Shown here one piece after another: positions 1,750 to 17,234 of a stretch of 64,000 nt of DNA (within the stretch, counting starts at the first letter, position 1; each line of letters starts with the position of its first letter). The notes below the pieces were generated by a model. It was not told the DNA's origin. It saw only the letters and a list, made by a program, of their open reading frames with translations, and searched no databases. The translations under genes and the position numbers were made by a program. The stretch comes from Brevundimonas sp. M20. Its GTDB lineage: Bacteria; Pseudomonadota; Alphaproteobacteria; Caulobacterales; Caulobacteraceae. Where the stretch lies: contig NZ_CP041243.1 of assembly GCF_006547065.1 (NCBI RefSeq), positions 1,503,001-1,567,000 on the forward strand. The letters are read 5' to 3'.

Positions 1750-2478
1750 TCACAGCCCTACTGGGCCCAAGATCCAGGTCATCCAGATACCGACGGCGAG
1801 AAAGACGCCGAACGCCAGCCGGTCATCGCCCGCGAGGGGCTTTTTCATGACGGCGCGCGCGAGGACCAGACTCAGGCCCGCGACCGCGGCCCAGAGCAGG
1901 ACCGACGGCAGGCCCATCCAGCCGACCCAGGCGCCGCCCGCGCCGAGCAGGAAGGGGTCGCCGCCGCCCAGCCCGTCGCGCCCCCGCACCTTGCGATAGG
2001 CGAAGGCAAGCAGCCACAGGGCCGCGAAGCCCGCGCCCGCGCCGATGGCGGCGTTCAGCAGACCTGTCCCGTTCGGAAGGATGGCCGCGCCCAGTCCGGC
2101 CGCGCCGAGCGGCAGGGTCAGTTGGTCGGGCAGCCAGAAATGCTCGGCGTCCACGGTCGCGATCAACAGCAGCAACCAGCCCAGCACGGCTGTCAGCAGG
2201 GCGGCGGACAGCAGGTCCTGCGACAGCGCGGCCCATGCGCCCAGACCGGCGCCGGCGAGGGCGAAGCCGACGTATCTGATCCATGCGCGGGCGGCGGGTT
2301 CGGGCTCCGCGGCCGGGAGCCGGGTGCTGATGCGGGCCAGCGCGGGGCCGACCGCCAGACCGGCCATTCCGAAAAAGACTGTGACAGTGACGCCGATCAC
2401 GATCCCTCCCGGGCGTTGCCCCAGCGTTGCGATAGGCGGCTCGTTCCGTCCCGGCAAGGGCTGGCCGACCGCGTTCAT
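1750..2478 (-). CDS. gspO: Prepilin peptidase (type IV leader peptidase, GspO/PilD family), compact form
   Basis: An inner-membrane aspartyl protease that would remove leader peptides from the pseudopilins GspG-K encoded downstream. The protein is hydrophobic with about six to seven membrane segments. The two catalytic aspartates are visible in TVDAEHFWLPD and in GLGGGDPFLLG (the family GxGD motif). The start is uncertain: I chose the ATG at 2478, while the same frame is open to 2535. Oddities: no cysteine anywhere, and the cytoplasmic N-methyltransferase domain with paired CxxC, present in classical PilD, is absent; only a remnant ISTRLP is visible where the usual N-terminal motif would be. 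It is transcribed away from the lipoprotein/TonB receptor/gsp genes. The family call is firm; the assignment to this T2SS is by proximity. Confidence 0.87.
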   Translation of the reverse strand: MNAVGQPLPGRNEPPIATLGQRPGGIVIGVTVTVFFGMAGLAVGPALARISTRLPAAEPEPAARAWIRYVGFALAGAGLGAWAALSQDLLSAALLTAVLGWLLLLIATVDAEHFWLPDQLTLPLGAAGLGAAILPNGTGLLNAAIGAGAGFAALWLLAFAYRKVRGRDGLGGGDPFLLGAGGAWVGWMGLPSVLLWAAVAGLSLVLARAVMKKPLAGDDRLAFGVFLAVGIWMTWILGPVGL

Positions 2479-2547
2479 TGTGACGGTTACGCCGTGTGAT
2501 GACGGTGTTTCATGAACTCGCGACGACAACTTCACGGAAGCGCGCGG

Positions 2548-2562
2548 GAACCGTCACGGTTC
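2548..2562. promoter_or_regulatory. 15-bp perfect palindrome in the gspO/lipoprotein divergent region
   Basis: GAACCG-TCA-CGGTTC is a perfect 6-3-6 dyad midway between the divergent prepilin peptidase and lipoprotein genes. Its position fits an operator serving one or both genes, but no regulator can be named and it could be a chance dyad in GC-rich DNA. The rest of 2479-2694 shows no convincing -35/-10 pair. Confidence 0.3.
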
Positions 2563-2694
2563 GGCGGCCTCGCTGTCATATCCGGCTCCTAACCACGGAC
2601 AGGGCAGGGCGGGGGCGATGCTTCGTCGGATCGGACGCATGGGCGTGCGGTCTCACCTGCCGTGAGTTCCTTCGGACCAGACACGGTGAAAACG

Positions 2695-4215
2695 ATGAAC
2701 GGCTTCAAACTGACCACGCTGCTGGCCCTGTCGGCCAGCGCCCTGACCCTGGCGGCCTGCGGCTCCGCTGAAGTCGCTTCGCCGGGCGAAGGCGATTTCG
2801 GCGGCGGCACCGGCGGTGGCGGCACTGGCCCGACCACCCCGCCCCCCGGCACGCCGGCGGCGGACTGCCCGACCGGCTTCGCCAACGTCGGCGTGGTCGC
2901 CGGCGGCACTCTGCGCGCCTGCCAGCTGCCGACCACGATCACCGGCAATCTGACCGTTCCGCTGCGCGCCGGCACTGTCTATTCGATCTCGGGCCGTACT
3001 GAAGTCGGCACCGACCGCGGCGCCGATCCGGCCGCTCCGGTCGCCGGTTCGCAGCAGGGCATCCTGACCATCGAGCCGGGCGTGCGTCTGTACGGTTCGG
3101 GCGGGTCGGACTACCTGCTGGTCAACCGCGGCTCGCAAATCTTCGCCGAAGGCACCGCGACCAACCCGATCATCTTCACCAGCCGCGCCAACATCGACGG
3201 CACCACCACCGAGAACTCGCAAGGCCAGTGGGGTGGCATCGTGATCGCCGGCCGCGCGCCGACGGCGGTTTGCCCGGTCGGCGTGACCGCGCCGAACATC
3301 GCCTGCGTGGGCCAGATCGAAGGCACCAGCGCCAACTACGGCGGCAACACCGTCTCGGATAACTCTGGCCGTCTCCGCTATGTGCAGATCCGTTACTCGG
3401 GCTTCGAAATCTCGCCGAACAACGAACTGCAGGCCCTGACCCTGGCCGGCGTCGGCAACGGCACCGTGGTTGAGTATGTCCAGGCCTACAACAGCTCGGA
3501 CGACGGCATCGAAATCTTTGGCGGAACGGTCAACCTGAGCCGCATCGTGATCAACGGCGCCGACGACGACGGTCTGGACACCGACACCGGCTGGCGCGGT
3601 GGCGCCCAGTTCGGCATCGTGACCCAGCGTCCGACCGCCGTCACCAACGGCAGCCGCGGCTTCGAGTGGTCGGCGGCGCCTTCGGGCACCGCCTTCTACG
3701 CCCAGCCGAAGGTCTCCAACTTCACCATCGTCGGCCGCAACGCCGCCGTGGCCGCTGACGCGCTGCTGACGCTGAACACCGGCACGCAGCCGACCATCAT
3801 CAACTCGGTCGTCACCAACCCGTCGACCTCGGCCGCGGCCTGCCTCGACATCGACGACGCGCAGACGGTTGCGAACAACCCGGTCTTCCGCTCGGTCTAC
3901 TTCGCCTGCTCGCGTCCCTACGAGAACGACTCGAACATCAATGCCGCGGCGACGGAGGCGGTGTTCATCAGCGCCACCAACATCGGCAACACCGCTGCGG
4001 GAACCTCGACCATGACGGCTCCGGCCGGCGCCACCCTGACGGCCCAGAGCCTGGCCTTCATCAACGGCGCCAACGAAACCGCCGTGACCCCGGCCAACGC
4101 GCCGGCGATCTACAGCTGGTTCACCACCGTGACCTACATCGGCGCCGTGCGTAACGCCTCCGACACCTGGTACCTGGGCTGGACCTGCGGCCTTCAGGCC
4201 GGCTCGACCTGCTGA
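2695..4215 (+). CDS. Secreted beta-helix-like lipoprotein next to T2SS and TonB receptor genes
   Basis: The ATG at 2695 gives a 506-residue protein starting MNGFKLTTLLALSAS and ending its signal in LTLAAC, a clear lipobox with the lipidated cysteine at residue 22; the next residue is G, not D, so export to the outer membrane is expected. An upstream GTG at 2662 would bury the signal and is rejected. A G-rich linker (residues about 31-45) follows. The body alternates short hydrophobic strands with N, G, D and T turns (for example RYVQIRYSGFEI, then VVEYVQAYNSSDDGIEIFGG), typical of right-handed parallel beta-helix proteins. Eight further cysteines suggest extracytoplasmic disulfides. It is followed by a TonB-dependent receptor and the T2SS operon, so it is a candidate T2SS substrate, perhaps like the T2SS-dependent surface lipoprotein ElpS of Caulobacter. 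No catalytic motif recognised. Confidence 0.8.
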   Translation: MNGFKLTTLLALSASALTLAACGSAEVASPGEGDFGGGTGGGGTGPTTPPPGTPAADCPTGFANVGVVAGGTLRACQLPTTITGNLTVPLRAGTVYSISGRTEVGTDRGADPAAPVAGSQQGILTIEPGVRLYGSGGSDYLLVNRGSQIFAEGTATNPIIFTSRANIDGTTTENSQGQWGGIVIAGRAPTAVCPVGVTAPNIACVGQIEGTSANYGGNTVSDNSGRLRYVQIRYSGFEISPNNELQALTLAGVGNGTVVEYVQAYNSSDDGIEIFGGTVNLSRIVINGADDDGLDTDTGWRGGAQFGIVTQRPTAVTNGSRGFEWSAAPSGTAFYAQPKVSNFTIVGRNAAVAADALLTLNTGTQPTIINSVVTNPSTSAAACLDIDDAQTVANNPVFRSVYFACSRPYENDSNINAAATEAVFISATNIGNTAAGTSTMTAPAGATLTAQSLAFINGANETAVTPANAPAIYSWFTTVTYIGAVRNASDTWYLGWTCGLQAGSTC

Positions 4216-4227
4216 TGACGGATGGGA

Positions 4228-4255
4228 CGGGCGGCGGCTTCTGCGCCGCCGCCCG
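4228..4255 (+). terminator. 11-bp perfect GC hairpin between lipoprotein and TonB receptor genes
   Basis: The arms CGGGCGGCGGC and GCCGCCGCCCG pair perfectly around the loop TTCTGC, 12 bases after the lipoprotein stop and about 40 bases before the receptor ATG. No T-run follows, so it is more likely an mRNA-stabilising hairpin or a weak or Rho-assisted terminator that lowers receptor expression relative to the lipoprotein. Confidence 0.5.
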
Positions 4256-4295
4256 GCTCGCCGAACCCTTCCGTTACTCCTTCGAGGCGCAGACC

Positions 4296-6929
4296 ATGAA
4301 GACCGTGAAAATGACCCTCGGCGGGCTGCTGCTCGCCACCACCGCCCTGGTCGCGCCGGGCGTCGCCCTGGCCCAGACCGCTCCCACTGCCCAATCCGCC
4401 GCCCAACAGGCCGAACCGCAAGTCGAACAGGACGTCGACCTGGGCGAAGTCGTTGTTCTGGGTCGCTATATTCCCCAGCCGAACCGCGAAAGCCCCGAGG
4501 TCGCGGCCTTCCTGACCGCCGAGGATCTGGAGCGCACCGGCGACGCCGACGCCGCCCAGGCCCTGTCGCGCGTCACCGGCCTGTCGATCGTCGAAGGCCG
4601 CTTCATCTATGTGCGGGGTCTGGGTGAGCGTTACTCCTCGGCCCTGCTGAACGGCTCGCCGCTGCCCAGCCCGGAGCCCCTGCAACGCGTCGTGCCGCTG
4701 GATCTGTTCCCGTCGGAAGTGCTTTCGGGTCTGACCGTCCAGAAGACCTATTCGGCGGCCTTCCCCGGTGAGTTCGGCGGCGGCGTCGTCGATCTGCAGA
4801 CCATCGACACGCCGGTCGATCCCTTCTTCAGCATGTCGGCCTCGCTGAGCGGCAACACCGAGACCTCGAACAAGGACGGGCTGATCTACTACGGATCGCG
4901 CACTGATTTCACGAGCTTCGACGACGGCACCCGCGACGTTCCGGGCCAACTGCAACTCGGCTTCAACAGCGGTCAGCGTATCTCGGCGGGCAACTTCACC
5001 GCCGACGAACTGCGGCTGATGGGTCAGTCGCTGGTCAACGCGCCCCTTCGCCTGCTGCAGCGCGAGACCACACCGGCCAACTTCGGCGTTCGCTTCATGG
5101 GCGGCGCCTCGAGCGAAACCGGCATGGGCACCCTGGGCGGCATTTTCGTCGCCTCATACGACAACAAGTGGACGGGCCGTCGCGGTGATCGTCAGTCGGG
5201 CCGGATCGACGCCGGCGAACTGGTGACGGCCAACGACTTCGACTTCGAGTCGAATCAGAATGACCTGACCCTGAACTTCCTGGGCGCGGTCAGCCTGACC
5301 AGCGACACCAACACCCTCAAATGGACGAACCTGTTCGTTCGCAATGTCTCGAAGGAGGCCCGTTCGGAGGCCGGCTTCGACGACGCTTCGGGTGGTCAGC
5401 GCCGGACGGATCACACCGAATGGTTTGTGCGTCAGCTTTTCTCGACCCAACTGGCCGGTGAGCACACCTTCGGTTCGGCGGGAGAATGGGAGTTCGACTG
5501 GCGGGCGGCCTACGCCCTGACGTCGCGCGACGCGCCCTACGAGAGCCGCTTCGGCTACGGCCAGAACGTGGCGGGTGACTGGATCCACGACATCGAAACG
5601 AACGCCATTTCCTTCAGCGAGCTGGAAGACGACATCATCTCGGGCGGCGCGGATGTGCACTACACCCTGCCGCTATCGGACGCCCGTGAAGCCGTGTTCT
5701 CCTTCGGTGTCGCCTATTCGGACAACAATCGTGAGTCCGAGCAGCGGACCCTGCGCTTCATCGCCCCGAACGGTCTGACGCAGGACCAGCTGGAATCGCG
5801 CGTCGACTACCTGTTCTCGGACGCCAACATCGGGCCATACCTCCAGATCGAGGAAATCACCGGCACAAACGGCGCCGCGGCGTTCGATGGTCAGATGACG
5901 GTAAAGGCGGCCTATGCCCAGGTGGCGGCGGAGTTCCTGCCGCTGCTGAACCTGAACCTCGGCGTGCGCTTCGAGCAGGGCGAACAGACCGTCACTCCGC
6001 GTGACCTCTTCGGGGGTTCGACCGGCTTCCTGCCGACCGAGATCAAGGAAGAGTACGTTCTGCCGGCGGGCACCATCACCTGGAACTTCGCCGAGGACAT
6101 GCAGCTGCGTCTCGGCGCGTCGAAAACGATCGGTCGTCCCCAGTTCCGCGAACTGGCGCCGCAGCAGTACACGGATGTCGAAAGCGACCGGACCTTCATC
6201 GGCAACCCGTATCTGGTCGATACGGAGATCCTCAACGTCGATGCGCGCTGGGAGTGGTACTTCGCCCGTCAGCAGTATGTGACCGCCGGTCTGTTCTACA
6301 AGGACCTGGACAAGCCCATCGAGTCCAGCGTCATCGACCAGGGCTCGTCGATCTCGCAGACCTTCCTCAACGCGCCGAACGCCACGATCATGGGCGCCGA
6401 GCTGGAAGTGAAGAAGTATTTCGAGTTCGGTTCGGGCATGGACTTCATCGCCAACAAGCGGTGGCTGGCCCAGGCGAACTACACCTGGTCCGACTCCGAG
6501 GTGAACGTCGACGCCGGTGACACCGTCATCACCCAGAACAGCCTGGGCGTCGCCCAACCGGCCTCGTTCTACGTGGTCGACGGCAGCCGCCTGCAAGGCC
6601 AGTCGGAACACGTCGTCAACGTCCAGCTGGGCTGGGAGGACGACACGGCCCGGTCGCAGGCGACCCTGATCGCCAACTATGTGTCGGAGCGCACCTCGGC
6701 GCGCGGCCGTCCGGGCGAGCCGGACCTGATCCAGGAGCCGGGCGTCCAGCTCGACTTCGTCTTCCGCAAGGATTTCGACTACGCCGGTCGCGAGTATGGC
6801 GTGTCGTTCGAACTGCGGAACCTGCTGGGTGAGGAGTTCCTCGAATATCAGGAGCTCGGCAACCGGGTGATCATCAACGGGTACGAACTGGGCACAAGCG
6901 GCTCGATCAGCCTGACCGCCCGCTTCTAA
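4296..6929 (+). CDS. TonB-dependent outer-membrane receptor associated with T2SS
   Basis: The ATG at 4296 opens an 877-residue protein with a Sec signal peptide ending VALAQ (residues 1-27); the ATG overlapping the lipoprotein stop (4215) would hide it and is rejected. A TonB-box-like stretch (LGEVVVLG) precedes the plug domain, where SRVTGLSIVEGRFIYVRGLG and FGGGVVDLQT are typical. The remainder is a beta-barrel of alternating strands ending in the aromatic F of LTARF. The receptor would import or move a ligand across the outer membrane using TonB energy. Substrate cannot be read from sequence; no iron-siderophore features stand out. Its place between a T2SS-type lipoprotein and gspC suggests it handles a ligand captured by, or the protein itself released by, the secretion system. 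A strong terminator follows. Confidence 0.92.
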   Translation: MKTVKMTLGGLLLATTALVAPGVALAQTAPTAQSAAQQAEPQVEQDVDLGEVVVLGRYIPQPNRESPEVAAFLTAEDLERTGDADAAQALSRVTGLSIVEGRFIYVRGLGERYSSALLNGSPLPSPEPLQRVVPLDLFPSEVLSGLTVQKTYSAAFPGEFGGGVVDLQTIDTPVDPFFSMSASLSGNTETSNKDGLIYYGSRTDFTSFDDGTRDVPGQLQLGFNSGQRISAGNFTADELRLMGQSLVNAPLRLLQRETTPANFGVRFMGGASSETGMGTLGGIFVASYDNKWTGRRGDRQSGRIDAGELVTANDFDFESNQNDLTLNFLGAVSLTSDTNTLKWTNLFVRNVSKEARSEAGFDDASGGQRRTDHTEWFVRQLFSTQLAGEHTFGSAGEWEFDWRAAYALTSRDAPYESRFGYGQNVAGDWIHDIETNAISFSELEDDIISGGADVHYTLPLSDAREAVFSFGVAYSDNNRESEQRTLRFIAPNGLTQDQLESRVDYLFSDANIGPYLQIEEITGTNGAAAFDGQMTVKAAYAQVAAEFLPLLNLNLGVRFEQGEQTVTPRDLFGGSTGFLPTEIKEEYVLPAGTITWNFAEDMQLRLGASKTIGRPQFRELAPQQYTDVESDRTFIGNPYLVDTEILNVDARWEWYFARQQYVTAGLFYKDLDKPIESSVIDQGSSISQTFLNAPNATIMGAELEVKKYFEFGSGMDFIANKRWLAQANYTWSDSEVNVDAGDTVITQNSLGVAQPASFYVVDGSRLQGQSEHVVNVQLGWEDDTARSQATLIANYVSERTSARGRPGEPDLIQEPGVQLDFVFRKDFDYAGREYGVSFELRNLLGEEFLEYQELGNRVIINGYELGTSGSISLTARF

Positions 6930-6938
6930 GTCTTTGAG

Positions 6939-6975
6939 AAAGGCCGGTTTCGAAAGGAGCCGGCCCTTTTTCTTT
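6939..6975 (+). terminator. Rho-independent terminator after TonB receptor gene
   Basis: GGCCGG (6942-6947) pairs with CCGGCC (6960-6965) around a 12-base loop and is followed by a T-rich tail (CTTTTTCTTT). It would separate the receptor transcript from the gsp operon, implying that gspC has its own promoter in 6976-7122. Confidence 0.8.
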
Positions 6976-7122
6976 GTGTGAAATCCATGACGATTGATCC
7001 GCGATCCGCGCAGTTGTCATGCTTGGTTCGCCGGGTCTTCATCTGGCGGTGAAGCCCGAACCCGGACGATTGGTCTAGGACCGCTTCGGGCCGTCGGGGC
7101 CCGTGTCGGGCGTCCCCTCGTG

Positions 7123-7989
7123 ATGGCTGTTCTTCGCAACTGGAGTTCGTCCGCCCGCGCGTTCGCGCAGGATGTCGCGGCGCGCCCGGTCCGGCTGCGT
7201 CCCTTTGTTGAGGGGGTGCTGGTCGCGGTTCTGCTGGTTCAGGCCGGCCGCATGGTATGGCTGTTCGTGGAGCCTTCCGCTCCGGCCTCGGCGGATGCGC
7301 CCGCCGCTGCACGTCTCGCGGATACCTCCATCTTCCAGCGCTTCGACGCCTTCTTCCGCACCGGCGGCCAGTCGAGCATGGCTGAAGACACCGCCACGGG
7401 CAGCAGCCAGATGCGGCTGTTCGGCGTTCGCGCCGACGGCGTGGGCGGCGGCTCGGCCATCATCGGACTGGCGGACGGCCGCCAGATTTCGGTCGGCGTG
7501 GGCGAGGAGGTCGAACCGGGCCTCGTTCTGCAATCGGTGGCCGCCGACCATGTGGTCCTGTCGCGCAATGGCGCGCTCAGCCGTCTGATCTTCGCTGAAA
7601 CGCCCGTCGGCGCCGCCGCTCCGCCTGCGCCCCCTGCCGGGGATCAGGTCGTCGCGCCGCCTAGCCCGCAGCCGACGCCCCAGACGACCTCGGCGCCGGG
7701 AGCCGCCGTGGTGGACCCGGCCCAGTTGATGGCACAGGCCTCGCTGCGTCCGCGCATGCGCGGGCTGGCGGTGAACGGCTTCACCGTCAACGCCTCGGGA
7801 GAAGCGCCCGCGCTGGGCGCGGCGGGGCTTCAGGCGGGGGACGTCATCCTCGCCGTCAATGGCATCGAACTGAACAGCGCGGGGCGGATCGCCGACCTGC
7901 GCCGCAACCTCGCGACCGCGCCTTCGGCCGAAATCCGCTTTGAGCGGGGCGGGCAGGCGCGCACCACCACCATAAGGACCGCCCGGTGA
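7123..7989 (+). CDS. gspC: T2SS inner-membrane protein GspC
   Basis: GspC links the outer-membrane secretin to the inner-membrane platform. The ATG at 7123 gives 288 residues: a cytoplasmic tail, one membrane segment at about 30-49 (EGVLVAVLLVQAGRMVWLF), a homology region at about 85-150 (MRLFGVRADG followed by GLADGRQISVGVGEEV), a proline-rich linker, and a C-terminal PDZ domain at about 210-288 (GAAGLQAGDVILAVNGIELN). The frame is open to 6994, but those residues have no membrane or domain character and the ATG gives the usual length. First gene of a tightly coupled gspC-M operon; its stop overlaps the gspD start (GTGA). Confidence 0.9.
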   Translation: MAVLRNWSSSARAFAQDVAARPVRLRPFVEGVLVAVLLVQAGRMVWLFVEPSAPASADAPAAARLADTSIFQRFDAFFRTGGQSSMAEDTATGSSQMRLFGVRADGVGGGSAIIGLADGRQISVGVGEEVEPGLVLQSVAADHVVLSRNGALSRLIFAETPVGAAAPPAPPAGDQVVAPPSPQPTPQTTSAPGAAVVDPAQLMAQASLRPRMRGLAVNGFTVNASGEAPALGAAGLQAGDVILAVNGIELNSAGRIADLRRNLATAPSAEIRFERGGQARTTTIRTAR

Positions 7990-10058
7990 CCCGCATCAGC
8001 CGCAATGCCGTCTGCGCCGTTCTGGCCGGACTGATGATCGCCCACGGACCGCTGGCCGCCGCGCCGGTTATGGCCCAGGCGAACCAGCGCCAGACCCTGA
8101 ACGTGCAGGGCGCAGACATCCGCGCCTTTATTCAGGATGTGGCCCGGATGACCGGCCGAACCTTCATTGTCGATCCGGCGGTGACCGGCACGGTGACGGT
8201 GACCAGTGAGCGCGCCCTGTCGCGGGCAGAGCTGTTCGAGGTCTTCCTGTCGACCCTGCGAGCCAATGGTCTGGTGGTGACCCGGACCGGCTCGGGCGCC
8301 TATCGCATCAGCCCGGCGCAGGGCGCCGCGCAAGGGCCGGCGACGGTGGGCGGAGAGCGCTTCACGACCGAGGTCTTCCAGCTGCGCAACATTGACGCCG
8401 CTTCGGCTGCCGAGACCATCCGTCCGCTGGTCGGCGCCCAGGGGCAGGTGCTGGCCAATCCGGGCGGCAACAGTGTCGTGGTCGCTGACTTCGCCGACAA
8501 CCTGACCCGCATCCGGGCCCTGATCGCCCGCATCGATGTGGATCGCGCCAGTTTCGACGTGATCACGCTGGAGAACTCGTCCGCGCGCGAGATCGCCGCC
8601 GTCCTGCAATCCGTTCTGACCCCTCCGGGCGGACAGCCGGGGCAGGGGATGGTCTCGGTTACGCCGGTCGACAGCTCCAACTCCGTCGTCCTGCGCGGCG
8701 ATCCCGCCGCCGTGGCCCGGGTGCGCCCGCTGGTCGAGGATCTGGATCGTCGCGCCCGCTCCGCCGACGACATCAGGGTGATCTTCCTTGAGCACGCCAA
8801 CGCAGAGCAGCTTCTGCCCGTGTTGCAACAGATCGTCGGCCAGCCGATCTCTCCGGCGCAAGCCAACGCCACTCCGGTCGCCGGCGCCGAAGGTGCGGCG
8901 CCTCCCGCGACCGCCGCTGCGGTGGCGCCCGCCGCGCCCGGCCAGCGCGCCACCATCGCCCGTTTCCCCGGCGCCAACGCGCTGGTGATCTCGGCCTCGG
9001 CCGAGACGCAGCGCACGCTGGCGGAGGTCATCCGGCAACTGGACCAGCGCCGCCAGCAGGTGCTGATCGAGGCCATCGTGGTCGAACTCAGCGACACCGC
9101 CGTGCGTGAACTGGGCGTCCAGTGGCTTCTCGCCGGCGAGGACGGCGCGCCTATCGGGCTGACCAACTACAGCGACAGCGCCACGCCGCTTCTGCCCATC
9201 GCGGGCGGGGCCGCGGCGACGCAACTGGATGAAGACGATCCGCTGCGCGAGCAACTGCAGAATCTGGCCATCAACTCCCTGCTGGGCGCCAACGGCTTCG
9301 TCGGCGGCGGTGGCGGGACCATCGGCAACGGGCTGTTCGGTTTCATCATCAATGCCGCCAAGACGGACAACGGCTCAAACCTGTTGCAGACGCCGTCGTT
9401 GATGACCCTCGACAACGAGGAGGCGACGATCCTCGTCGGTCAGGAAGTGCCGATCACCACCGGCGAGGCCCTCCTGGACGGGAACTCTAACCCCTTCCGC
9501 ACCACCCAGCGGCAGGACGTCGGGGTAAAGCTGGTGGTCCGGCCCCAGATCAACGCGGGCGGCTCCATCACCCTGCACCTGCGTCAGGAAGTGTCGAGCA
9601 TCAACGGCGTGCTGACAGCGTCGAGCAATGATCTGGTGCTGAACAAGCGCGAGCTGGAGACGACGCTGGTCGTCGATGACGGCGACATCGCCGTGGCCGG
9701 CGGCTTGCTGGACCAGAATGATCGTCTGGCCGTCGACAAGGTGCCGGGGCTGGGCGACATGCCGGTGATCGGCGCCCTGTTCCGCTCGACCAGCAACCAG
9801 CGCGGCCGCACCAATCTGATGGTCTTCCTGCGCCCGACCATCGTGCGCTCGAGCGCGGATTCCCGTCAGCTGGCCGCGGATCGCTGGGGATATATGCGCG
9901 ACCAGCAACTGGCCAATGATCCGACCCGCGAGCCGAGCCTGGACGAGATGCTGCGCGACTACATGCGCACCCAGCCGCCGGTCGCGCCTGCGCCGACGCT
10001 GGTTCCGGGCGAGGTGGTGATCTCGCCCCTGCCGCCCGTCACCGCGCCGCAGGAGTGA
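7986..10058 (+). CDS. gspD: T2SS outer-membrane secretin GspD
   Basis: A 690-residue secretin starting at a GTG inside the gspC stop. A signal peptide ends near residue 31 (VMAQA). The N0 domain starts at QTLNVQGADIRAFIQDVARM, followed by N1-N3 repeats (FQLRNIDAASAAETIRPL, VITLENSSAREIAAVLQSVL, VIFLEHANAEQLLPVLQQIV). The secretin core follows, with LLQTPSLMTLDNEEATILVG and VPGLGDMPVIGALFRS being the hallmark secretin signatures. The protein would form the multimeric outer-membrane channel. The C-terminus ends in a proline-rich tail without an obvious pilotin-binding motif, and no gspS-type pilotin gene lies in the window. Confidence 0.96.
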   Translation: MTRISRNAVCAVLAGLMIAHGPLAAAPVMAQANQRQTLNVQGADIRAFIQDVARMTGRTFIVDPAVTGTVTVTSERALSRAELFEVFLSTLRANGLVVTRTGSGAYRISPAQGAAQGPATVGGERFTTEVFQLRNIDAASAAETIRPLVGAQGQVLANPGGNSVVVADFADNLTRIRALIARIDVDRASFDVITLENSSAREIAAVLQSVLTPPGGQPGQGMVSVTPVDSSNSVVLRGDPAAVARVRPLVEDLDRRARSADDIRVIFLEHANAEQLLPVLQQIVGQPISPAQANATPVAGAEGAAPPATAAAVAPAAPGQRATIARFPGANALVISASAETQRTLAEVIRQLDQRRQQVLIEAIVVELSDTAVRELGVQWLLAGEDGAPIGLTNYSDSATPLLPIAGGAAATQLDEDDPLREQLQNLAINSLLGANGFVGGGGGTIGNGLFGFIINAAKTDNGSNLLQTPSLMTLDNEEATILVGQEVPITTGEALLDGNSNPFRTTQRQDVGVKLVVRPQINAGGSITLHLRQEVSSINGVLTASSNDLVLNKRELETTLVVDDGDIAVAGGLLDQNDRLAVDKVPGLGDMPVIGALFRSTSNQRGRTNLMVFLRPTIVRSSADSRQLAADRWGYMRDQQLANDPTREPSLDEMLRDYMRTQPPVAPAPTLVPGEVVISPLPPVTAPQE

Positions 10059-10062
10059 TCCG

Positions 10063-11574
10063 GTGATCACCCTCGTCAATCCGACACTGCCCTACGGCTT
10101 CGCAAAGCGGCACGGGGTGATCCTGCTCGACGCGGGCGAGATCGCGGTCGTCGGCCTGCGCGAGGGCGCGGACCCCTCGGCCCTGATCGAGACCCGCCGC
10201 GCGCTGGGCCGTCCGCTACGGATAGAGCCCCTGTCGCAGGCGGCCTTCGACCGACAGCTTTCGGAAGTCTATGCGGGCGACCATCTGAACGCCGCTGACG
10301 GCGATGATCTGGCCATGCCCGGCGGGCTGGACGGTCTGATCGACGACATTCCGGCCGCCGCCGACCTGCTGGACACAGCGGATGACGCTCCGGTCATCCG
10401 CCTGATCAACGGCGTCATCGCCGAGGCCGTGCGCACCGGAGCCTCGGACATCCATCTCGAGCCCTTCGAGAGCGCCCTGATTGTTCGGATGCGCGTGGAC
10501 GGGGTGCTGCGCGAGGCCCTGACGCTGAGCCCGCGCATCATCCCGCTGCTGGTCTCGCGCATCAAGGTCATGGCGCGGCTGGATATCGCCGAGAAGCGGG
10601 TGCCGCAGGACGGCCGTATCCCGTTGACTTTGGGCGGCAAGACGCTGGACGTGCGGGTTTCGACCCTGCCGTCGCGGGCGGGCGAGCGCGTCGTGCTGCG
10701 GATCCTCGACAAGGATCAGGCCGGTCTGTCGCTGGAGCAGCTCGGCATGGCTCCCGATGCACTGGACGTCTTCCGCATCGCGCTGAAGGAGCCGAACGGC
10801 ATCATTCTGGTCACCGGGCCGACGGGTTCGGGCAAGACCACCTCGCTGTATGCCGGTCTCAGCCTGCTGAATGACGCCACGCGGAATATCCTGACGGTCG
10901 AGGACCCGGTCGAATACGCCATCGACGGCATCGGCCAGACGCAGGTGAACACCAAGGTCGGCATGACCTTCGCCGCCGGGCTGCGCGCCATCCTGCGTCA
11001 GGACCCGGATGTGGTCATGGTCGGCGAAATCCGCGACGTCGAAACGGCGGGCATCGCCGTTCAGGCCTCGCTGACCGGCCACCTGGTGCTGTCGACCGTG
11101 CATACCAATGACGCGGTCGGGGCCATCACCCGCCTGCGCGACATGGGCATCGAGCCCTTCCTTCTGGCCTCCACCCTGCGTCTGATCGTGGCCCAGCGGC
11201 TGGTGCGCCGTCTGTGCGGGGAATGCCGCACGCCTGAGCCTGCCGACAAGGCGACGGCGAAACTGGCGGGGGTGAAGAAGGGCGATACCGTCTGGCGTCC
11301 CCACGGTTGCCCGCACTGCCAGAACACCGGCTACGTCGGCCGCGTCGGCCTGTACGAAACCATCCGTGTCGATGACCGCGTGCGCCGCCTGATCGCCTCG
11401 GAAGCAGGTGAGGACGCCATCGCCGCCGCTGCGTTCGAGACCTCCGGCACGCTGGCCCGGCGGGCGCGTGATCTGGTCCTGTCCGGCGTCACCTCGGTTG
11501 AGGAGGCCGTGCGCGTCACGCGTCAGGAAACCAGCGAGGCGCATGAGCCCGTCGCGGTGGAGGTCGCGGCCTGA
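10063..11574 (+). CDS. gspE: T2SS ATPase GspE
   Basis: A 503-residue cytoplasmic ATPase that powers pseudopilus assembly. The Walker A box GPTGSGKT is at residues 252-259, the Walker B region DPDVVMVGEIRD at 314-325, the Asp and His boxes lie around TVEDPVEY and LSTVHTND, and a zinc-binding tetracysteine is formed by C385/C388 and C416/C419. This set defines GspE rather than a pilus retraction ATPase, and the zinc motif matches the extension ATPases. The GTG start at 10063 lies 4 bases after the gspD stop; its stop overlaps the gspF ATG (TGATG). Confidence 0.97.
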   Translation: MITLVNPTLPYGFAKRHGVILLDAGEIAVVGLREGADPSALIETRRALGRPLRIEPLSQAAFDRQLSEVYAGDHLNAADGDDLAMPGGLDGLIDDIPAAADLLDTADDAPVIRLINGVIAEAVRTGASDIHLEPFESALIVRMRVDGVLREALTLSPRIIPLLVSRIKVMARLDIAEKRVPQDGRIPLTLGGKTLDVRVSTLPSRAGERVVLRILDKDQAGLSLEQLGMAPDALDVFRIALKEPNGIILVTGPTGSGKTTSLYAGLSLLNDATRNILTVEDPVEYAIDGIGQTQVNTKVGMTFAAGLRAILRQDPDVVMVGEIRDVETAGIAVQASLTGHLVLSTVHTNDAVGAITRLRDMGIEPFLLASTLRLIVAQRLVRRLCGECRTPEPADKATAKLAGVKKGDTVWRPHGCPHCQNTGYVGRVGLYETIRVDDRVRRLIASEAGEDAIAAAAFETSGTLARRARDLVLSGVTSVEEAVRVTRQETSEAHEPVAVEVAA

Positions 11575-12788
11575 TGGCGAGTTTCGACTATGTGGCGGTG
11601 GACGCCGGCGGGCGGACGGTGTCCGGAGCCGTGACGGCTGCTGACGAGATCGCCGCGCGGGCCCTGCTGGGCCGGCGGCGGCTGATGACGCTTGAGATAC
11701 TGCCCGCCCGTGCGGGAGCCGCCCGTGCCGCTGCACCCTCGGCGAAGGGCGCGAAGCTGGACGCCCGCACCCTTGCACTGACCACCCGTCAACTGGCCAC
11801 GCTGGTCTCTGTCAGTCCTCTGGAGGAGGCTCTTCGCACCATCGCCCTGCAGGCTGACCGTCCCGCGGTGCGCCGGGTGCTGGAAGGCGTGCATGCGGGC
11901 GTGCTGGAGGGGCGCCGCCTGTCGGACGCCATGGGATCGCAGGGACAGGCTTTCCCGCCGCTGTACAGGGCCATGGTGTCCGCCGGCGAGACGTCGGGCG
12001 CCCTGCAACCCATTCTGGAACGTCTGGCCGATGGCCTCGAGCGCAACCAGCAGGTCCAGGGCAAGGTGATCACAGCGCTCGTCTATCCCGCCGTGCTGGC
12101 CGTGGTGGCGTTGGGTGTCATCACCGCCCTCATGGCCTTCGTCGTGCCCAAGGTGGTCGATCAGTTCGACAGTATGAACCAGACCCTGCCCCTGCTGACG
12201 CGGGTGGTGATCGGCGTTTCCAACGGGATGCGTGACTGGGGCTGGCTGATGATCCTGCTGGGGGTGCTGGCGGGCGTGCTGGGCGTCGTCGCCCTGCGCA
12301 ATCCGGCGGTCCGGCTGAGGGCCGACACCTTGCTGCTGAAGTTGCCGTTGATCGGTCGCCTGACCCGCGACCTGCATGGGGCGAAGATGGCGCGGACGCT
12401 GGCGACAATGCTGACCTCGGGCCTGCCGGTGCTGGAGGGGCTGACCATCACCGCCCGCACCGTTTCGAACCGTCGCCTGCGGCAGGCGACCGAGACAATG
12501 GCGGACGCGGTGCGGGAAGGGGGAGGCCTGTCCGCCGCCATGCGCCGGGCCGACGTCTTCCCGCCAATCCTCGTCTACATGACCGCCTCGGGCGAAAGCA
12601 GCGGGCGGCTGGAGCCGATGATGGAACGCGCCGCCGACTATCTGGAGCGCGAGTTCTCGACCTTCACCGCCGTGATGCTGAGCCTGCTCGAGCCGGCGAT
12701 CATCGTGGTCATGGGCGGCGTCGTGGCGGTGATCGTCCTGTCGATCCTGCTGCCCATCCTGCAGATCAACACCTTGGCCATGGGCTGA
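11574..12788 (+). CDS. gspF: T2SS inner-membrane platform protein GspF
   Basis: A 404-residue polytopic protein with two tandem GspF/PilC domains. It starts FDYVAVDAGGRTVSGAVTA, the conserved N-terminal signature, and each half has a cytoplasmic helical part (LATLVSVSPLEEALRTIA; LATMLTSGLPVLEGL) followed by membrane segments (VITALVYPAVLAVVALGVIT; EPAIIVVMGGVVAVIVLSI). GspF transmits work from the GspE ATPase to the pseudopilus. Start codon overlaps the gspE stop. Confidence 0.95.
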   Translation: MASFDYVAVDAGGRTVSGAVTAADEIAARALLGRRRLMTLEILPARAGAARAAAPSAKGAKLDARTLALTTRQLATLVSVSPLEEALRTIALQADRPAVRRVLEGVHAGVLEGRRLSDAMGSQGQAFPPLYRAMVSAGETSGALQPILERLADGLERNQQVQGKVITALVYPAVLAVVALGVITALMAFVVPKVVDQFDSMNQTLPLLTRVVIGVSNGMRDWGWLMILLGVLAGVLGVVALRNPAVRLRADTLLLKLPLIGRLTRDLHGAKMARTLATMLTSGLPVLEGLTITARTVSNRRLRQATETMADAVREGGGLSAAMRRADVFPPILVYMTASGESSGRLEPMMERAADYLEREFSTFTAVMLSLLEPAIIVVMGGVVAVIVLSILLPILQINTLAMG

Positions 12789-12790
12789 AG

Positions 12791-13294
12791 ATGAGTGCTG
12801 TAATGACTGAAGTTGAAAAGAAAATCGAACAGCGCCGCCCTCGCGCTCAAGTAGCGTCGCGCCGCGCGCGACGCGGTAGTGGCCAAAAGAGAGCCGGTTT
12901 CACCCTTGTCGAGCTGATGGTGGTGATCGTCATCATCGGCCTGCTGGCCACGGTCGTCGTGATCAACGTCCTGCCCAGTCAGGACAAGGCCATGGTCGGC
13001 AAGGCGCGTGCGGACATCGCCACACTGGAGCAGGCCATCGAGACCTATCGCCTCGACAATCTGACCTTCCCGGACAGCCTTGAGGCGCTGGTGACAGCGC
13101 CGACCGGTCTGGCCAATCCCGAACGCTATCGTCAGGGCGGCTACATCCGTCGCCTGCCGAAAGACCCGTGGGGCGCGGACTACCAGTTCAACCGCGAAAG
13201 CCGTCACGGCGGAGCGTTCGATGTCTGGTCGTTCGGCGCCGACGGTCGTGAAGGGGGCGAAGGCAATGACGCCGACATCGGCAACTGGCGGTAA
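12791..13294 (+). CDS. gspG: Major pseudopilin GspG with unusually long leader
   Basis: The 167-residue preprotein carries the prepilin cleavage site at RAG/FTLVEL (residues 35-41), a hydrophobic N-terminal helix (VVIVIIGLLATVVVINVL) and the GspG C-terminal domain with DPWGADYQF and SFGADGREGGEGNDADIGNW, the loop that binds calcium in known GspG structures. It polymerises into the pseudopilus after cleavage by the prepilin peptidase. The leader before the cleavage site is about 36 residues and very basic (RRARRGSGQKR), much longer than the usual 5-10; an internal ATG at residue 5 shortens it only slightly. The gene starts 2 bases after gspF and overlaps gspH. Confidence 0.95.
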   Translation: MSAVMTEVEKKIEQRRPRAQVASRRARRGSGQKRAGFTLVELMVVIVIIGLLATVVVINVLPSQDKAMVGKARADIATLEQAIETYRLDNLTFPDSLEALVTAPTGLANPERYRQGGYIRRLPKDPWGADYQFNRESRHGGAFDVWSFGADGREGGEGNDADIGNWR

Positions 13295-13727
13295 GAGCCG
13301 TCAGGGCTTCACCCTGGTGGAGCTGCTGATGGTCGTGGCGATCATCGGGCTGGCTGCGGGGGCCGTGGTGCTGACCCTGCCGGACCCCAAACCGGCTGTG
13401 GCGGCTGAGGCCGAGCGGTTTGCCTCGCGGCTGGTTCGCGCGCGTGAAGAAGCCATCCTGACCAACCGTCCGGTCGCTGTTGAAGCGGGCGCGGCTGGTT
13501 ATGCCTTCTCGACATTTGACGGCTTGCAGTGGTCGCCGCTGGCGGACGGACCGTTCCGCGCGGAGGTCTGGAGCGACGGGGCGACCGTGTCCCCGTCCGG
13601 ACTTGCCGTGCGTGTCGTGTTCGATCCGTCAGGCGTGGCCGATCCCGCGACGGTGACCCTCGCTCGTGAAGGCCGCAGCCGCACGATCTCGGTCGACGGC
13701 GCCGGCGAGGTGCGCGTCGATGGCTGA
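13266..13727 (+). CDS. gspH: Minor pseudopilin GspH
   Basis: The ATG at 13266, inside the end of gspG (29-base overlap), gives a 153-residue preprotein with prepilin cleavage site RQG/FTLVELL after a short leader and the hydrophobic helix MVVAIIGLAAGAVVLTL. The C-terminal part (AERFASRLVRAREEAILTNRPVAV) matches the GspH family. It is a minor component of the pseudopilus tip complex. The frame is also open from 13221, but that start would lengthen the leader without need. Confidence 0.9.
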   Translation: MTPTSATGGKSRQGFTLVELLMVVAIIGLAAGAVVLTLPDPKPAVAAEAERFASRLVRAREEAILTNRPVAVEAGAAGYAFSTFDGLQWSPLADGPFRAEVWSDGATVSPSGLAVRVVFDPSGVADPATVTLAREGRSRTISVDGAGEVRVDG

Positions 13728-14076
13728 ACGCGGCGGTTTCACCCTGGTCGAGATGCTGGTGGCGCTGGCGGTATTCAGTCTGGCCGCCATGGCCCTGCTG
13801 AACCTGTCAGGCGAAAGCACCCGTTCGGCCCAGCGCGTTGAGACCCGCACCCTCGGCGGCATGGTGGCCGAGAATGTCGCGGTCGAGGCCGCCGTCGCAC
13901 CGTCTCTGGGCGAGGGTGAGACGTCTGGCCAGTCCGATCTGGGCGGGCGTCGCTGGGTCTGGACCCGCGCCGTTCTGCCGACCTCCGACGCCGACCTGCT
14001 GCGCATCGACGTCCGGGTGCGCGATGAGGAAGGGCAGGCGGCCGAGCGCACCCTGTTCTGCAGGCGCAACCCGTGA
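13720..14076 (+). CDS. gspI: Minor pseudopilin GspI
   Basis: A 118-residue preprotein with a very short leader (MAERGG) before FTLVEMLVALAVFSLAAMALL, the typical GspI N-terminus. Position between gspH and gspJ and the domain ending in a basic RTLFCRRNP match GspI, which nucleates the tip complex with GspJ and GspK. The start overlaps gspH by 8 bases; its stop overlaps the gspJ GTG. Confidence 0.88.
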   Translation: MAERGGFTLVEMLVALAVFSLAAMALLNLSGESTRSAQRVETRTLGGMVAENVAVEAAVAPSLGEGETSGQSDLGGRRWVWTRAVLPTSDADLLRIDVRVRDEEGQAAERTLFCRRNP

Positions 14077-14660
14077 ACCGCGCGGGATTCACTCTTGTGG
14101 AGGTGCTGATCTCCCTGATGATCTTCGCCATGCTGGCGGCGGCGGGGGCGGCGGTTCTGGCCGTGACCGTGGACAATCGCTTCGCCGTCAAGGCGCAGAG
14201 CGACCGCGTCGGCGATCTGCAAAGGATGCGCGCCCTGCTGCGCGCGGACATCGGTCAGGCGACAGGACGTCGGGCGAGGGGTGTGACGGGACGCCCCGCG
14301 CCGCAGGCGATGATCGGCCCGATGAGTTCGACCGATCCGCTGCTGACCCTGACCCGCGCGGGCTGGAGCAATCCGGGGGACCGCGCACGACCGTCATTGC
14401 AGCGGGTCGAATACAGCCTCGTCGATGGTCGGCTGGAGCGACGTGTGGCGGAGCAGCTGGACGGCGCGCGGCCGGGGCCGCCGCAGGTGCTCTATCGCGG
14501 CGTCCGCGATGTGACCGTCGCCTTCATCCGGGACGGGGAGGCGGCTCCGGCCTTCACCTCGACCACGGACAGGCCGCTGCCCGACGCCGTGCGCCTGACC
14601 ATGACCCTCGACGGGTACGGTCCGGTCGAGCAACTGTTTCTGGTCGGGGGCGGCCGATGA
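14073..14660 (+). CDS. gspJ: Minor pseudopilin GspJ
   Basis: A 195-residue preprotein starting at GTG with leader MNRAG before FTLVEVLISLMIFAMLAAAGAAVL. The E at +5 of the mature protein, needed for assembly, is present. The body (QRVEYSLVDGRLERRV, then VLYRGVRDVTVAFIRDG) fits GspJ. It forms the tip complex with GspI and GspK. The start and stop both overlap the neighbouring genes by 4 bases, so translation is probably coupled. Confidence 0.9.
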   Translation: MNRAGFTLVEVLISLMIFAMLAAAGAAVLAVTVDNRFAVKAQSDRVGDLQRMRALLRADIGQATGRRARGVTGRPAPQAMIGPMSSTDPLLTLTRAGWSNPGDRARPSLQRVEYSLVDGRLERRVAEQLDGARPGPPQVLYRGVRDVTVAFIRDGEAAPAFTSTTDRPLPDAVRLTMTLDGYGPVEQLFLVGGGR

Positions 14661-15640
14661 AGCGCCGACCCGACCGTGAGGGCATGGCCCTTCTGACCGT
14701 CCTGCTTCTGGTTGCGGTCATGTCGGTCGTCGCCGTGGCCCTGCTGGACGACGTTCGTTTTTCGGTGCGCCGTGCGACCAACGCCGAGACGGGCGGACAG
14801 GCCCAGTGGCTGGCTTCAGGCGCTGAACTGATGGCGCGCGACCGCATCAGGCGGCTGATGCTGATGGATCCGACCCGCACGCCGCTTGAGCCCGATTGGA
14901 ACGGTCGTCGTCTGGACTTTCCCATCGACAACGGCGCGATCAGCGCCACGGTCTCCGACGGTCAGGCCTGCTTCAATCTGAACAGCGTGGTGCTGGGCGT
15001 GGGCGAGGACCTGATCGCCCGGCCGGAAGGGGCGGCGCAGTTCCGGGCGCTGGGCCGCGCGGTCGGCGTGCCTGACAGCCGGATGCGTGCGATCACCGAC
15101 GCCCTGACCGACTGGCTGGACGCTGACAATGTCGCCTTGCCGCTGGGCGCCGAGGACGGAGCCTATGCGGGCTTGTCCACGCCCTACCGCACGGCAGGGG
15201 TGATGATGGCCGAGACCAGTGAGCTGCGCGCCGTGAAGGGTGTGGATGAGGACGCCTACCGTCGCCTGCGGCCCTACGTCTGCGCCCTGCCGACCAGCCA
15301 GTTGTCGCCGTTGAACGTGAACACCCTCAGCGCTGATCAGGCCCCTCTGATCTCCATGCTGACCCTGGGCCAGGTCACGCCGCAGCAGGCCCGAGCCGTG
15401 ATCGCCCGTCGCCCGCGCGACGGCTGGGCGAACAGCGAGGCCTTCTGGAGCCAGCCGGCCCTTTCGAACTTCACGCCCGACGAAGGTACCCGTGCGCAGG
15501 CCGTTGTCCTGACGCGCTTTTTCCGCCTCCGGGTGGACGTGGAATATGGCGGCGCGCGCGCCGTCCGCACCGCCCTGCTGGAGGCCCGCCCCGACGGCGC
15601 CGTCCGCACCGTCATCCAGCGTTGGACACCCGAAGAATGA
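14657..15640 (+). CDS. gspK: Minor pseudopilin GspK (tip subunit)
   Basis: The ATG at 14657 overlaps the gspJ stop and gives 327 residues. The leader MKRRPDREG precedes MALLTVLLLVAVMSVVAVAL; as is usual in GspK, no glutamate stands at position +5. The large globular part contains ITDALTDWLDADN and NVNTLSADQAPLISML, matching the helix-rich insert that caps the pseudopilus. The open frame extends upstream to 13838, but those residues are an off-frame reading of gspI/gspJ. Confidence 0.92.
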   Translation: MKRRPDREGMALLTVLLLVAVMSVVAVALLDDVRFSVRRATNAETGGQAQWLASGAELMARDRIRRLMLMDPTRTPLEPDWNGRRLDFPIDNGAISATVSDGQACFNLNSVVLGVGEDLIARPEGAAQFRALGRAVGVPDSRMRAITDALTDWLDADNVALPLGAEDGAYAGLSTPYRTAGVMMAETSELRAVKGVDEDAYRRLRPYVCALPTSQLSPLNVNTLSADQAPLISMLTLGQVTPQQARAVIARRPRDGWANSEAFWSQPALSNFTPDEGTRAQAVVLTRFFRLRVDVEYGGARAVRTALLEARPDGAVRTVIQRWTPEE

Positions 15641-16740: not shown

Positions 16741-17234
16741 GCGCCCTTTTCTCCCGCGCCCACGGTTGGTGGGACGGCCGCACCGTGCGCGAGCGCCGGA
16801 TGCTGGCGGTGATGTTGCTGCTGATCGCCGGCGTGCTGATCTGGCTGGTCGTGGTGCGACCGGTGCAGGCCTGGCGGGTCGCGGCGGCGGATCGCCGGGC
16901 CGAAGCGGAGACGGTGCTGGCCGAGGTCCGTTCCGGCCTGCGCGTGGTCGCGCCGTCGTCGACGCCTGCGTCCGCCGATACGGAAGGTCTGGAGCCCTTG
17001 GTGCGTCGCACGGCGGAGACAGCGGGGCTGACGGTTGTCACCACCATGGCCCCCGGCGGGGGGCTGGGCATCCAGATGTCGCAGGCCCCCGGTCGCGAGA
17101 CCTTCGCCTGGCTGGCGTCCCTCGAGGCGGATCACGGGGTGAAGGTCTGCGCTCTGGGTGTCATGGAGAACACCGACGCCACCCTCAACATCGACGGCTC
17201 ACTCGGCCGGAACGGTTGTTCCACTGTCGGCTGA
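16737..17234 (+). CDS. gspM: T2SS inner-membrane protein GspM
   Basis: A 165-residue bitopic protein: a short cytoplasmic segment with ERRMLAVML, one membrane span at about 24-42 (VMLLLIAGVLIWLVVV), then a periplasmic helix and small ferredoxin-like domain. It is the last gene of the gsp operon; no gspN follows. The start overlaps gspL by 4 bases. Its last 36 bases overlap the convergent DUF1365 gene, so the two transcripts are complementary at their 3' ends. Confidence 0.85.
   Translation: MSALFSRAHGWWDGRTVRERRMLAVMLLLIAGVLIWLVVVRPVQAWRVAAADRRAEAETVLAEVRSGLRVVAPSSTPASADTEGLEPLVRRTAETAGLTVVTTMAPGGGLGIQMSQAPGRETFAWLASLEADHGVKVCALGVMENTDATLNIDGSLGRNGCSTVG

Follow-up and report, generated by a model that had tools for sequence, protein, structure and literature searches.

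The elpS-TBDR pair of the window

The 64,000-nucleotide stretch of Brevundimonas sp. M20 DNA analysed here (the window) holds a lipoprotein gene and a gene for a TonB-dependent receptor (TBDR) between a prepilin peptidase gene and gspC of a type II secretion system (T2SS) cluster. Based on homology over the body of the protein, with the same conserved core, the lipoprotein probably belongs to the ElpS family, which is matched in 79 of 101 genomes, the window genome included. Its identification with CC0170 (ElpS) of Caulobacter crescentus rests on gene order and this family homology, and an earlier, sequence-only reading of the window had not recognised the protein as an ElpS. Comparison across genomes suggests that the TBDR, and not the T2SS, is the constant neighbour of elpS and that the pair travels as a unit. 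The sequence-only reading had described the order and strands of these genes, a lipobox protein with eight additional cysteines and a beta-helix-like body, and all of these descriptions held. The lipid-bearing residue is Cys22, and the further cysteines are at positions 58, 76, 193, 204, 383, 405, 498 and 506.

Both proteins were modelled as single chains. The AlphaFold2 model of ElpS (mean pLDDT 90.3; 65-row alignment) consists mostly of strands; pLDDT falls below 50 in residues 19-45, which surround and follow the lipid cysteine. Top Foldseek matches to this model include the right-handed beta-helix proteins Pel9A (probability 0.98) and AlgE4; none of the 286 matches reached E<=0.001, and TM scores were at most 0.36 among the best 50 rows. 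No Pfam or NCBIfam family matched the lipoprotein at E<=0.001, no PHROGs match was found at E<=1, and searches of PDB sequences gave no convincing relative (best E 0.23 and 1.1). Membership of the SusD family, which has a helical fold, was rejected given the predominance of strands, the beta-helix matches and the lack of a Pfam match. The TBDR carries plug and barrel domains, and by eye a signal peptide begins at its likely start codon. Its model (pLDDT 88.2; 47-row alignment) is of the importer type, with a plug and a barrel like those of known transporters, and its Foldseek matches are to TonB-dependent transporters (TBDTs; best E 1.8e-25), among them chains of BtuB-BtuG, XusA-XusB and SusCD (5fq6, 8bmx, 9gbc).

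In the 65-row alignment, Cys58 and Cys76 co-vary in all rows with letters at both positions, as do Cys193 and Cys204; Cys383 and Cys405 are concordant in 63 of the 65 rows, with both missing in three of these. Disulfides probably stiffen the ElpS beta-helix. Residues D269, D270, E273, D291, D295, E324 and E209 are identical in all 65 rows, and position 292 is D or E. Seven of the acidic residues (D269, D270, E273, D291, D292, D295 and E324) also hold in 16 of 16 rows of an alignment that includes four Bacteroidota sequences. The acidic rows D269-D270-E273 and D291-D292-D295 are set 22 residues apart, and from this spacing we infer that they stack, 22 residues presumably making one turn of the helix. 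They could perhaps form a Ca2+-type site for an anionic ligand; the D-D-x-x-D row may resemble the Ca2+ site of Pel9A.

The mature window lipoprotein begins CGSAEV, with Gly and not Asp at position +2, and its post-cysteine motif ends in EVASPG. An [SN]PG motif lies within about 10 residues of the lipid cysteine in 87 of 117 loci; gammaproteobacterial-type N-termini read CGG(G)D, mostly followed by IN, and acidic post-cysteine residues are present in three of four Bacteroidota loci. The lipobox script succeeded in all but 8 of the loci read, and its picks in L042, L050 and L150 were wrong internal cysteines. Two ElpS matches stand in tandem in L040-L053, L086, L087, L093-L096 and L105-L107, and in the loci checked both belong to a single fusion protein of roughly 900-1000 aa; Alteromonas L107 has three in one 1356-aa protein.

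Table 1. Features of the window (positions in the window) and additional gspC-like open frames next to elpS in other loci (positions in the locus named)
Feature	Position	Strand	Remarks
Prepilin peptidase gene (gspO/pilD-like)	1750..2535	-	divergent from elpS; PF01478, E 6.5e-18
Pho-box-like direct repeat	2551..2579	+	CCGTCAC-N15-CTGTCAT; 12/14; 22-bp period
elpS-family lipoprotein gene	2695..4215	+	506 aa; likely start ATG 2695
Codon of lipid Cys22	2758-2760	+	lipobox LAAC
TBDR gene, CC0171-type	4296..6929	+	877 aa from likely start ATG 4296; PF07715, PF00593
Weaker Pho-box-like repeat before gspC	7014..7042	+	TTGTCAT-N15-TCTTCAT; 10/14
gspC	7123..7989	+	PF11356 and PDZ; putative start, open reading frame (ORF) opens at 6994
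gspD (secretin)	7986..10058	+	TIGR02517, 579.6 bits
gspE, gspF, gspG, then ORFs in the place of H-M	10063..17234	+	E, F and G by NCBIfam
Extra gspC, L201 (Brevundimonas)	10953-11762
Extra gspC, L202 (Brevundimonas)	7153-8004
Extra gspC, L203 (Brevundimonas)	7119-8261
Extra gspC, L205 (Brevundimonas)	7717-8538
Extra gspC, L126 (Sphingomonadales)	5371-6180
Extra gspC, L136 (Sphingomonadales)	8997-9806
Extra gspC, L144 (Sphingomonadales)	9054-9806
Extra gspC, L159 (Sphingomonadales)	8905-9810

Conservation and joint divergence of the pair

In the order-level loci, the TBDR gene adjoins the lipoprotein gene on the same strand in 20 of 20 cases, with GspD in the stretch in 14 of 20. Wider loci gave a same-strand adjacent TBDR in 27 of 30 (exceptions L098, L101 and L110) and GspD in 7 of 30. 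Among the named loci, which are the best 80 of 551 relatives from a genome-contig scan and are biased to close kin, the TBDR was adjacent in all 75 with at least 3 kb downstream, and GspD was near in 29 of 80. The locus sets overlap slightly (L114, L116, L121, L145 and L189 come from genomes already present in the unnamed sets). Five matches came from Bacteroidota, on plasmid records; the four examined (Hymenobacter, Parabacteroides, Aureibacter and Phocaeicola) all have the pair, in either gene order, with no T2SS match in their stretches. Since the same arrangement recurs in many genomes, the linkage is not due to chance.

The two genes also diverge together inside a conserved T2SS locus. 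Two Brevundimonas T2SS loci, L039 and L194, and a fragment of a third, L195, which failed the length filter for trees, have a GspD 80-81% identical to that of the window, but their identities to the window proteins are 35-36% for the TBDR and 36-39% for the lipoprotein. In both gene trees L039 clusters with L194, and their nearest neighbours by path, Indioceanicola and Kordiimonas, lie at a long distance. The simplest reading of these sequences would be a one-step replacement of both genes as a cassette; the alternative is fast divergence of both. Across 51 loci, with the near-duplicate rows L037/L121, L086/L189 and L187/L188 included, lipoprotein and TBDR distance matrices correlate with r 0.87 (partial r 0.79 given GspE), and lipoprotein and GspD distances with r 0.69 (partial 0.41 given GspE). 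The adjacency, the joint divergence and the correlated distances bear out the proposal of the sequence-only reading that lipoprotein and receptor belong together.

A match to a 2-oxoglutarate (2OG)-Fe(II) oxygenase lies near the pair, on either side, in L089, L107, L120-L123, L125, L130, L134, L138, L139, L141, L168, L179, L180, L183, L185 and L188, and the examples in L107, L123 and L168 were confirmed as PF13640. This enzyme is a candidate third partner of the pair.

A probable phosphate link

A Pho-box-like direct repeat precedes elpS in the window (Table 1). Scores count matches to a consensus of two half-sites, with a maximum of 14. At 22-bp spacing, which was picked after inspecting sequences, this site is the best among 44 window upstreams, the next scoring 10. 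The weaker repeat before gspC may have arisen by chance, because four other window upstreams of the 44 also score 10. In Brevundimonas, 12 of 14 elpS upstreams (window included; 16 of 29 loci were dropped for lack of a usable start) score at least 10 at this spacing, compared with 6 of the 44 window upstreams, that of elpS among them.

At the classical 11-bp spacing, Pho-box-like sites of at least 11/14 were found in 55 of 115 elpS upstreams and in 54 of 1180 controls (4.6%), the controls being upstreams of other, mechanically called ORFs of the same loci, some of them surely non-genes. Shuffled elpS upstreams gave a mean of 1.9 and a highest count of 3 over 20 rounds. At a threshold of 12/14 the counts were 14 of 115 and 24 of 1180. 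The sites stand in gene orientation in 53 of 55 cases, a median of 151 bp before the start, and occur both with GspD in the locus (18 of 46) and without it (37 of 69). The set is limited to loci with a recognisable lipobox and sufficient upstream DNA; it holds near-duplicates and three rows with a mis-picked start (L042, L050 and L150), and related rows are not independent.

Some gammaproteobacterial pairs have phoBR or ExbB-ExbD-TonB genes as neighbours. The Alteromonas plasmid locus L107 reads phoB-phoR-phosphate-binding protein-2OG oxygenase-elpS-TBDR-DUF3450-ExbB-ExbB-ExbD-TonB, and in L093, L166 and L167 phoB-phoR-like genes are divergent from the pair and adjoin it. A DUF3450-ExbB-ExbD set lies in the stretches of L094-L096, L106, L107, L113, L174 and L184; no full set was seen in those of L100-L103, L173, L176 and L192. 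Starvation for phosphate induces elpS in Caulobacter (Le Blastier et al., 2010, PMC2996285, accessible text). The available part of a 2024 study of Caulobacter lists the T2SS and a range of TBDRs as functions of the PhoB regulon (PMC11208175). Literature searches on Alteromonas under phosphate limitation, on homologues with S-layer names and on surface lipoproteins in phosphate-starved cells gave nothing useful.

Linkage to type II secretion

The sequence-only reading had further supposed that the lipoprotein is exported by the adjacent T2SS. Findings in Caulobacter weaken this claim, as the T2SS is needed there only for the release of ElpS and not for its arrival at the surface. ElpS is surface-exposed with or without a T2SS there, being proteinase-accessible in a gspC-N deletion, and its release is T2SS-dependent and protease-inhibitor-sensitive. 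The cut probably falls immediately ahead of residue 38, and the authors credit this release to a secreted protease (PMC2996285, accessible text). The T2SS is a frequent but optional partner of the pair, and by analogy with Caulobacter its role would be in release rather than display.

The survey of neighbourhoods went halfway towards the outcome that would have refuted the sequence-only reading, namely homologues that mostly lack a link to T2SS genes. Many alphaproteobacteria do have a real link, as do the xanthomonads seen, but GspD lies in the stretch of 55 of 138 loci (a set with the window but without three repeats, short matches and the short loci L005-L033), a lower bound because some stretches are short. 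The GspD-in-locus label changes at least 25 times on the FastTree tree of either gene, and no GspD was seen in the Alteromonas-type loci examined.

Among 101 relatives, 70 have both ElpS and a GspD over cut-off, 9 ElpS only, 4 GspD only and 18 neither, in a cross-reading of two scans in which two ElpS-negative genomes were taken as G092 and G094. Several of the nine ElpS-only relatives are incomplete assemblies, and G023 has its GspD split over contigs; in G062, G070, G078 and G098, of one genus, ElpS without GspD appears genuine. In 398 genomes of the phylum, pair and T2SS occur together in 43, the pair alone in 8, the T2SS alone in 167 and neither in 180. ElpS is thus present in 51 of these, and by E-value 8 of the 51 are without a T2SS secretin over cut-off. 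In eight pair-bearing genomes without a GspD over cut-off, PF11356 (GspC) found no match. Fisher tests, which ignore descent, gave 6e-10 for the relatives and 7.5e-7 for the phylum. Pair and T2SS are associated more than by chance, yet the pair is also found alone. On account of the pair-bearing genomes without a secretin over cut-off, we rejected the idea that the pair is retained only where there is a T2SS. Likewise, the SPG motif is unlikely to be a T2SS signal because it is kept in L049, a genome where no T2SS was found (Phycosocius L049/L145, no GspD over cut-off).

The window genome is a single 3.3-Mb contig with one ElpS and with two GspD proteins over the TIGR02517 cut-off, the second at G000:C1:411700-413409, plus one weaker match. 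The window GspC matches TIGR01713 under the cut-off, and the names gspH-M were assigned from gene order and tblastn between loci, with no profile basis. Four genomes of the same genus that also carry the pair (G049, G053, G034 and G050; loci L196 and L214-L216) have a T2SS of another type, in a rearranged order, with GspD 33-34% identical to that of the window.

An extra GspC beside elpS

In eight loci a second GspC-like gene lies directly upstream of elpS-TBDR (Table 1); an automatic survey found seven among 166 loci and missed L205. Four are from the genus of the window, and the other four from Sphingomonadales (Sandarakinorhabdus, Parasphingopyxis and Sphingosinicella). The four Brevundimonas genomes keep a full cluster elsewhere with gspC adjoining gspD, and another GspC likewise adjoins gspD in the four Sphingomonadales genomes. 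PF11356 gives two matches in seven of the eight genomes, one (that of L126) under cut-off; in the L144 genome it finds just the copy near gspD, and the extra copy scores 20 bits. Four of the eight extra copies were scanned for the HR domain (PF11356) and PDZ: three are over the PF11356 cut-off and that of L144 is below it, and all four, like the window GspC, fall under the TIGR01713 cut-off.

In both GspC trees a single branch sets the eight extra copies apart from all others. Its support is moderate and unstarred (91/88, with 89% of bootstraps, in the first tree; 86/71 and 95% in the second, from a thinned set). The hosts' own GspC proteins group with the T2SS GspC of their lineages, apart from the extra copies; L126 is a long row in these trees and the own copy L223 a 188-aa fragment. 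The ElpS and TBDR proteins of the eight loci are not one clade (5 changes), which leaves two histories for the extra GspC: an ancient origin with frequent loss, or separate gains. Pho-box-like scores in the Sphingomonadales loci are L136 12, L159 11 (22-bp spacing), L126 10 and L144 9. L201, L202, L203 and L205 share, before elpS, a CTATACTT-N3-GTATAAT-like inverted repeat (TTATAAT in L201), the Pho box being absent.

No report of a pair-linked extra GspC was found in a limited search of the open-access literature. Of the leads to a real physical connection between the pair and the T2SS, we regard it as the strongest. Tentatively, and against our own expectation, the ElpS-receptor module might carry its own T2SS specificity subunit, an exchangeable adaptor coupling secretion to TonB-driven uptake under phosphate starvation. 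The joint secretion-uptake system that the sequence-only reading had envisaged is partly supported: the pair-linked GspC and the co-occurrence with the T2SS speak for it, but display in Caulobacter does not need the T2SS. Pair-linked GspC proteins would also lend themselves well to the question of what is recognised by GspC during type II secretion.

Proposed function and rival explanations

Based on these observations, we propose, with confidence evenly balanced for and against, that ElpS and its dedicated TBDR act as a surface capture-and-import pair during phosphate starvation, coupled to the T2SS in some lineages. PhoB would raise elpS under phosphate limitation, the induction being known from Caulobacter and the site predicted here. 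The lipid and a flexible linker would anchor ElpS on the outer face, where its beta-helix could capture a phosphorus-rich or anionic ligand. ElpS would pass this ligand to the TBDR, with import powered by TonB-ExbB-ExbD. The T2SS, where present, would be an accessory that secretes whatever frees ElpS, and probably ligand-making enzymes too. Our analysis adds to the published arrangement the constancy of the TBDR, the cassette-like swap, the enrichment of Pho-box-like sites, the phoBR and ExbB-ExbD-TonB neighbours, the acidic rows and the extra GspC. Partner constancy, Pho-box-like sites and joint change turn bacterial uptake of large phosphorus compounds into a testable question.

Several observations weigh against this proposal. 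In the accessible text of PMC2996285, Caulobacter cc0171 is constitutive, unlike elpS; no change in intracellular phosphate was detected, by a method that the authors call insensitive; and a connection is made between ElpS and the alkaline phosphatase activity of the medium, so ElpS could be a released helper rather than a tethered binder. The upstream of window elpS reaches at best 10/14 at the classical spacing, 60 of 115 elpS upstreams (that of the window included) score below 11, and the four Brevundimonas loci that carry an extra GspC lack a Pho-box-like site ahead of elpS (best 7-9). No TBDR adjoins the ElpS-like genes of L110 and L098, and the script found no lipobox in the ElpS-like proteins of L097, L098, L099, L101 and L110. 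The partial correlation of lipoprotein and GspD distances exceeds all 2000 permutations, and so extends beyond GspE.

A somewhat unlikely, though serious, alternative is that the T2SS itself handles ElpS: GspC would recruit ElpS, directly or by way of a protein attached to it, for export or release by the machine, and in some lineages a pair-dedicated GspC would do so. Direct linkage to gspC/gspD in many alphaproteobacteria and in xanthomonads, the co-occurrence counts (70/9/4/18 and 43/8/167/180) and the single tree group of extra GspC proteins in hosts that keep their own all favour it, as does the toxicity of ElpS overproduction without a T2SS (the authors' data not shown; PMC2996285, accessible text). 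However, the T2SS-independent display of Caulobacter ElpS, the genomes with a pair but no T2SS found (one of which keeps SPG), the Gly after the lipid cysteine of the window protein and the lack of correction for descent in the counts all argue against such handling.

It is improbable that the receptor is instead an exporter, a TonB-powered TBDR moving ElpS across the outer membrane, in the way that Oar is needed for the secretion of PopC (PMC6434023, available part). The T2SS-independent surface route, the near-constant pairing with joint divergence and the Oar-PopC precedent fit this view; deletion of cc0171 left ElpS production intact, and no surface test of that strain was found in the accessible text of PMC2996285. 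However, the TBDR was modelled as an ordinary plug-and-barrel transporter, and L110 has no adjacent TBDR. Surface lipoproteins of Bacteroidota usually carry acidic post-cysteine residues. Because the Bacteroidota ElpS homologues carry them too (in three of four loci), no special exporter would be needed.

It is more improbable still that genes of outer-membrane traffic merely happened to stay together by operon inertia, without a shared function: the lability of the T2SS linkage and the different regulation of the Caulobacter receptor and lipoprotein (PMC2996285, accessible text) would suit this, but the pair stays adjacent across Proteobacteria and Bacteroidota in both gene orders, and both genes diverge together inside a conserved T2SS locus.

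Comparison with known systems

The sequence-only reading had guessed that similar linkages might already be known, and they are. In C. crescentus, cc0170 (elpS) and cc0171 (TBDR) lie directly upstream of gspC, the loci of Xanthomonas campestris, Sphingomonas alaskensis and Hyphomonas neptunium are similarly organised, and the authors already suggested a functional interaction from the co-occurrence of elpS and cc0171 (PMC2996285, accessible text). As in the window, the order is elpS-TBDR-gspC and the lipobox protein is of about 50 kDa. The Caulobacter gspO gene follows gspN, whereas the window peptidase gene is upstream of elpS. In the Xanthomonas xcs cluster, a TBDR and two hypothetical genes precede xcsC, and the cluster is described as more similar to that of Caulobacter than to xps (2008, PMC2585010); the available part of that paper gives no function for the pair. 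Since these two papers describe it, the window is a further case of a published arrangement. No molecular function of ElpS was assigned in the literature found. As in the xcs-type arrangement, a TBDR gene precedes gspC in L120 and L168, which show elpS-TBDR-gspC. XphA/XqhA is an orphan GspC-GspD pair of Pseudomonas aeruginosa, and it resembles the extra-GspC loci in having an additional GspC outside the main T2SS cluster; the extra GspC described here, in contrast, adjoins elpS-TBDR, with no extra GspD seen beside it.

PulA, a lipoprotein exported by a T2SS, likewise lies beside T2SS genes (PMC2996285, accessible text). Unlike PulA, ElpS has no known inner-membrane retention signal, the PulA-type Asp at +2 being Gly in the window lipoprotein, and in Caulobacter its passage across the outer membrane does not depend on the T2SS. 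Oar of Myxococcus xanthus is, like the window receptor, a TBDT tied to an extracellular protein, PopC, for whose secretion it is required (PMC6434023, available part). SusC-SusD, BtuB-BtuG and XusA-XusB share with the window pair the combination of a TonB-dependent transporter and a lipoprotein partner. In contrast to them, ElpS is modelled as a beta-helix, and the pair is linked to Pho-box-like sites and to the T2SS.

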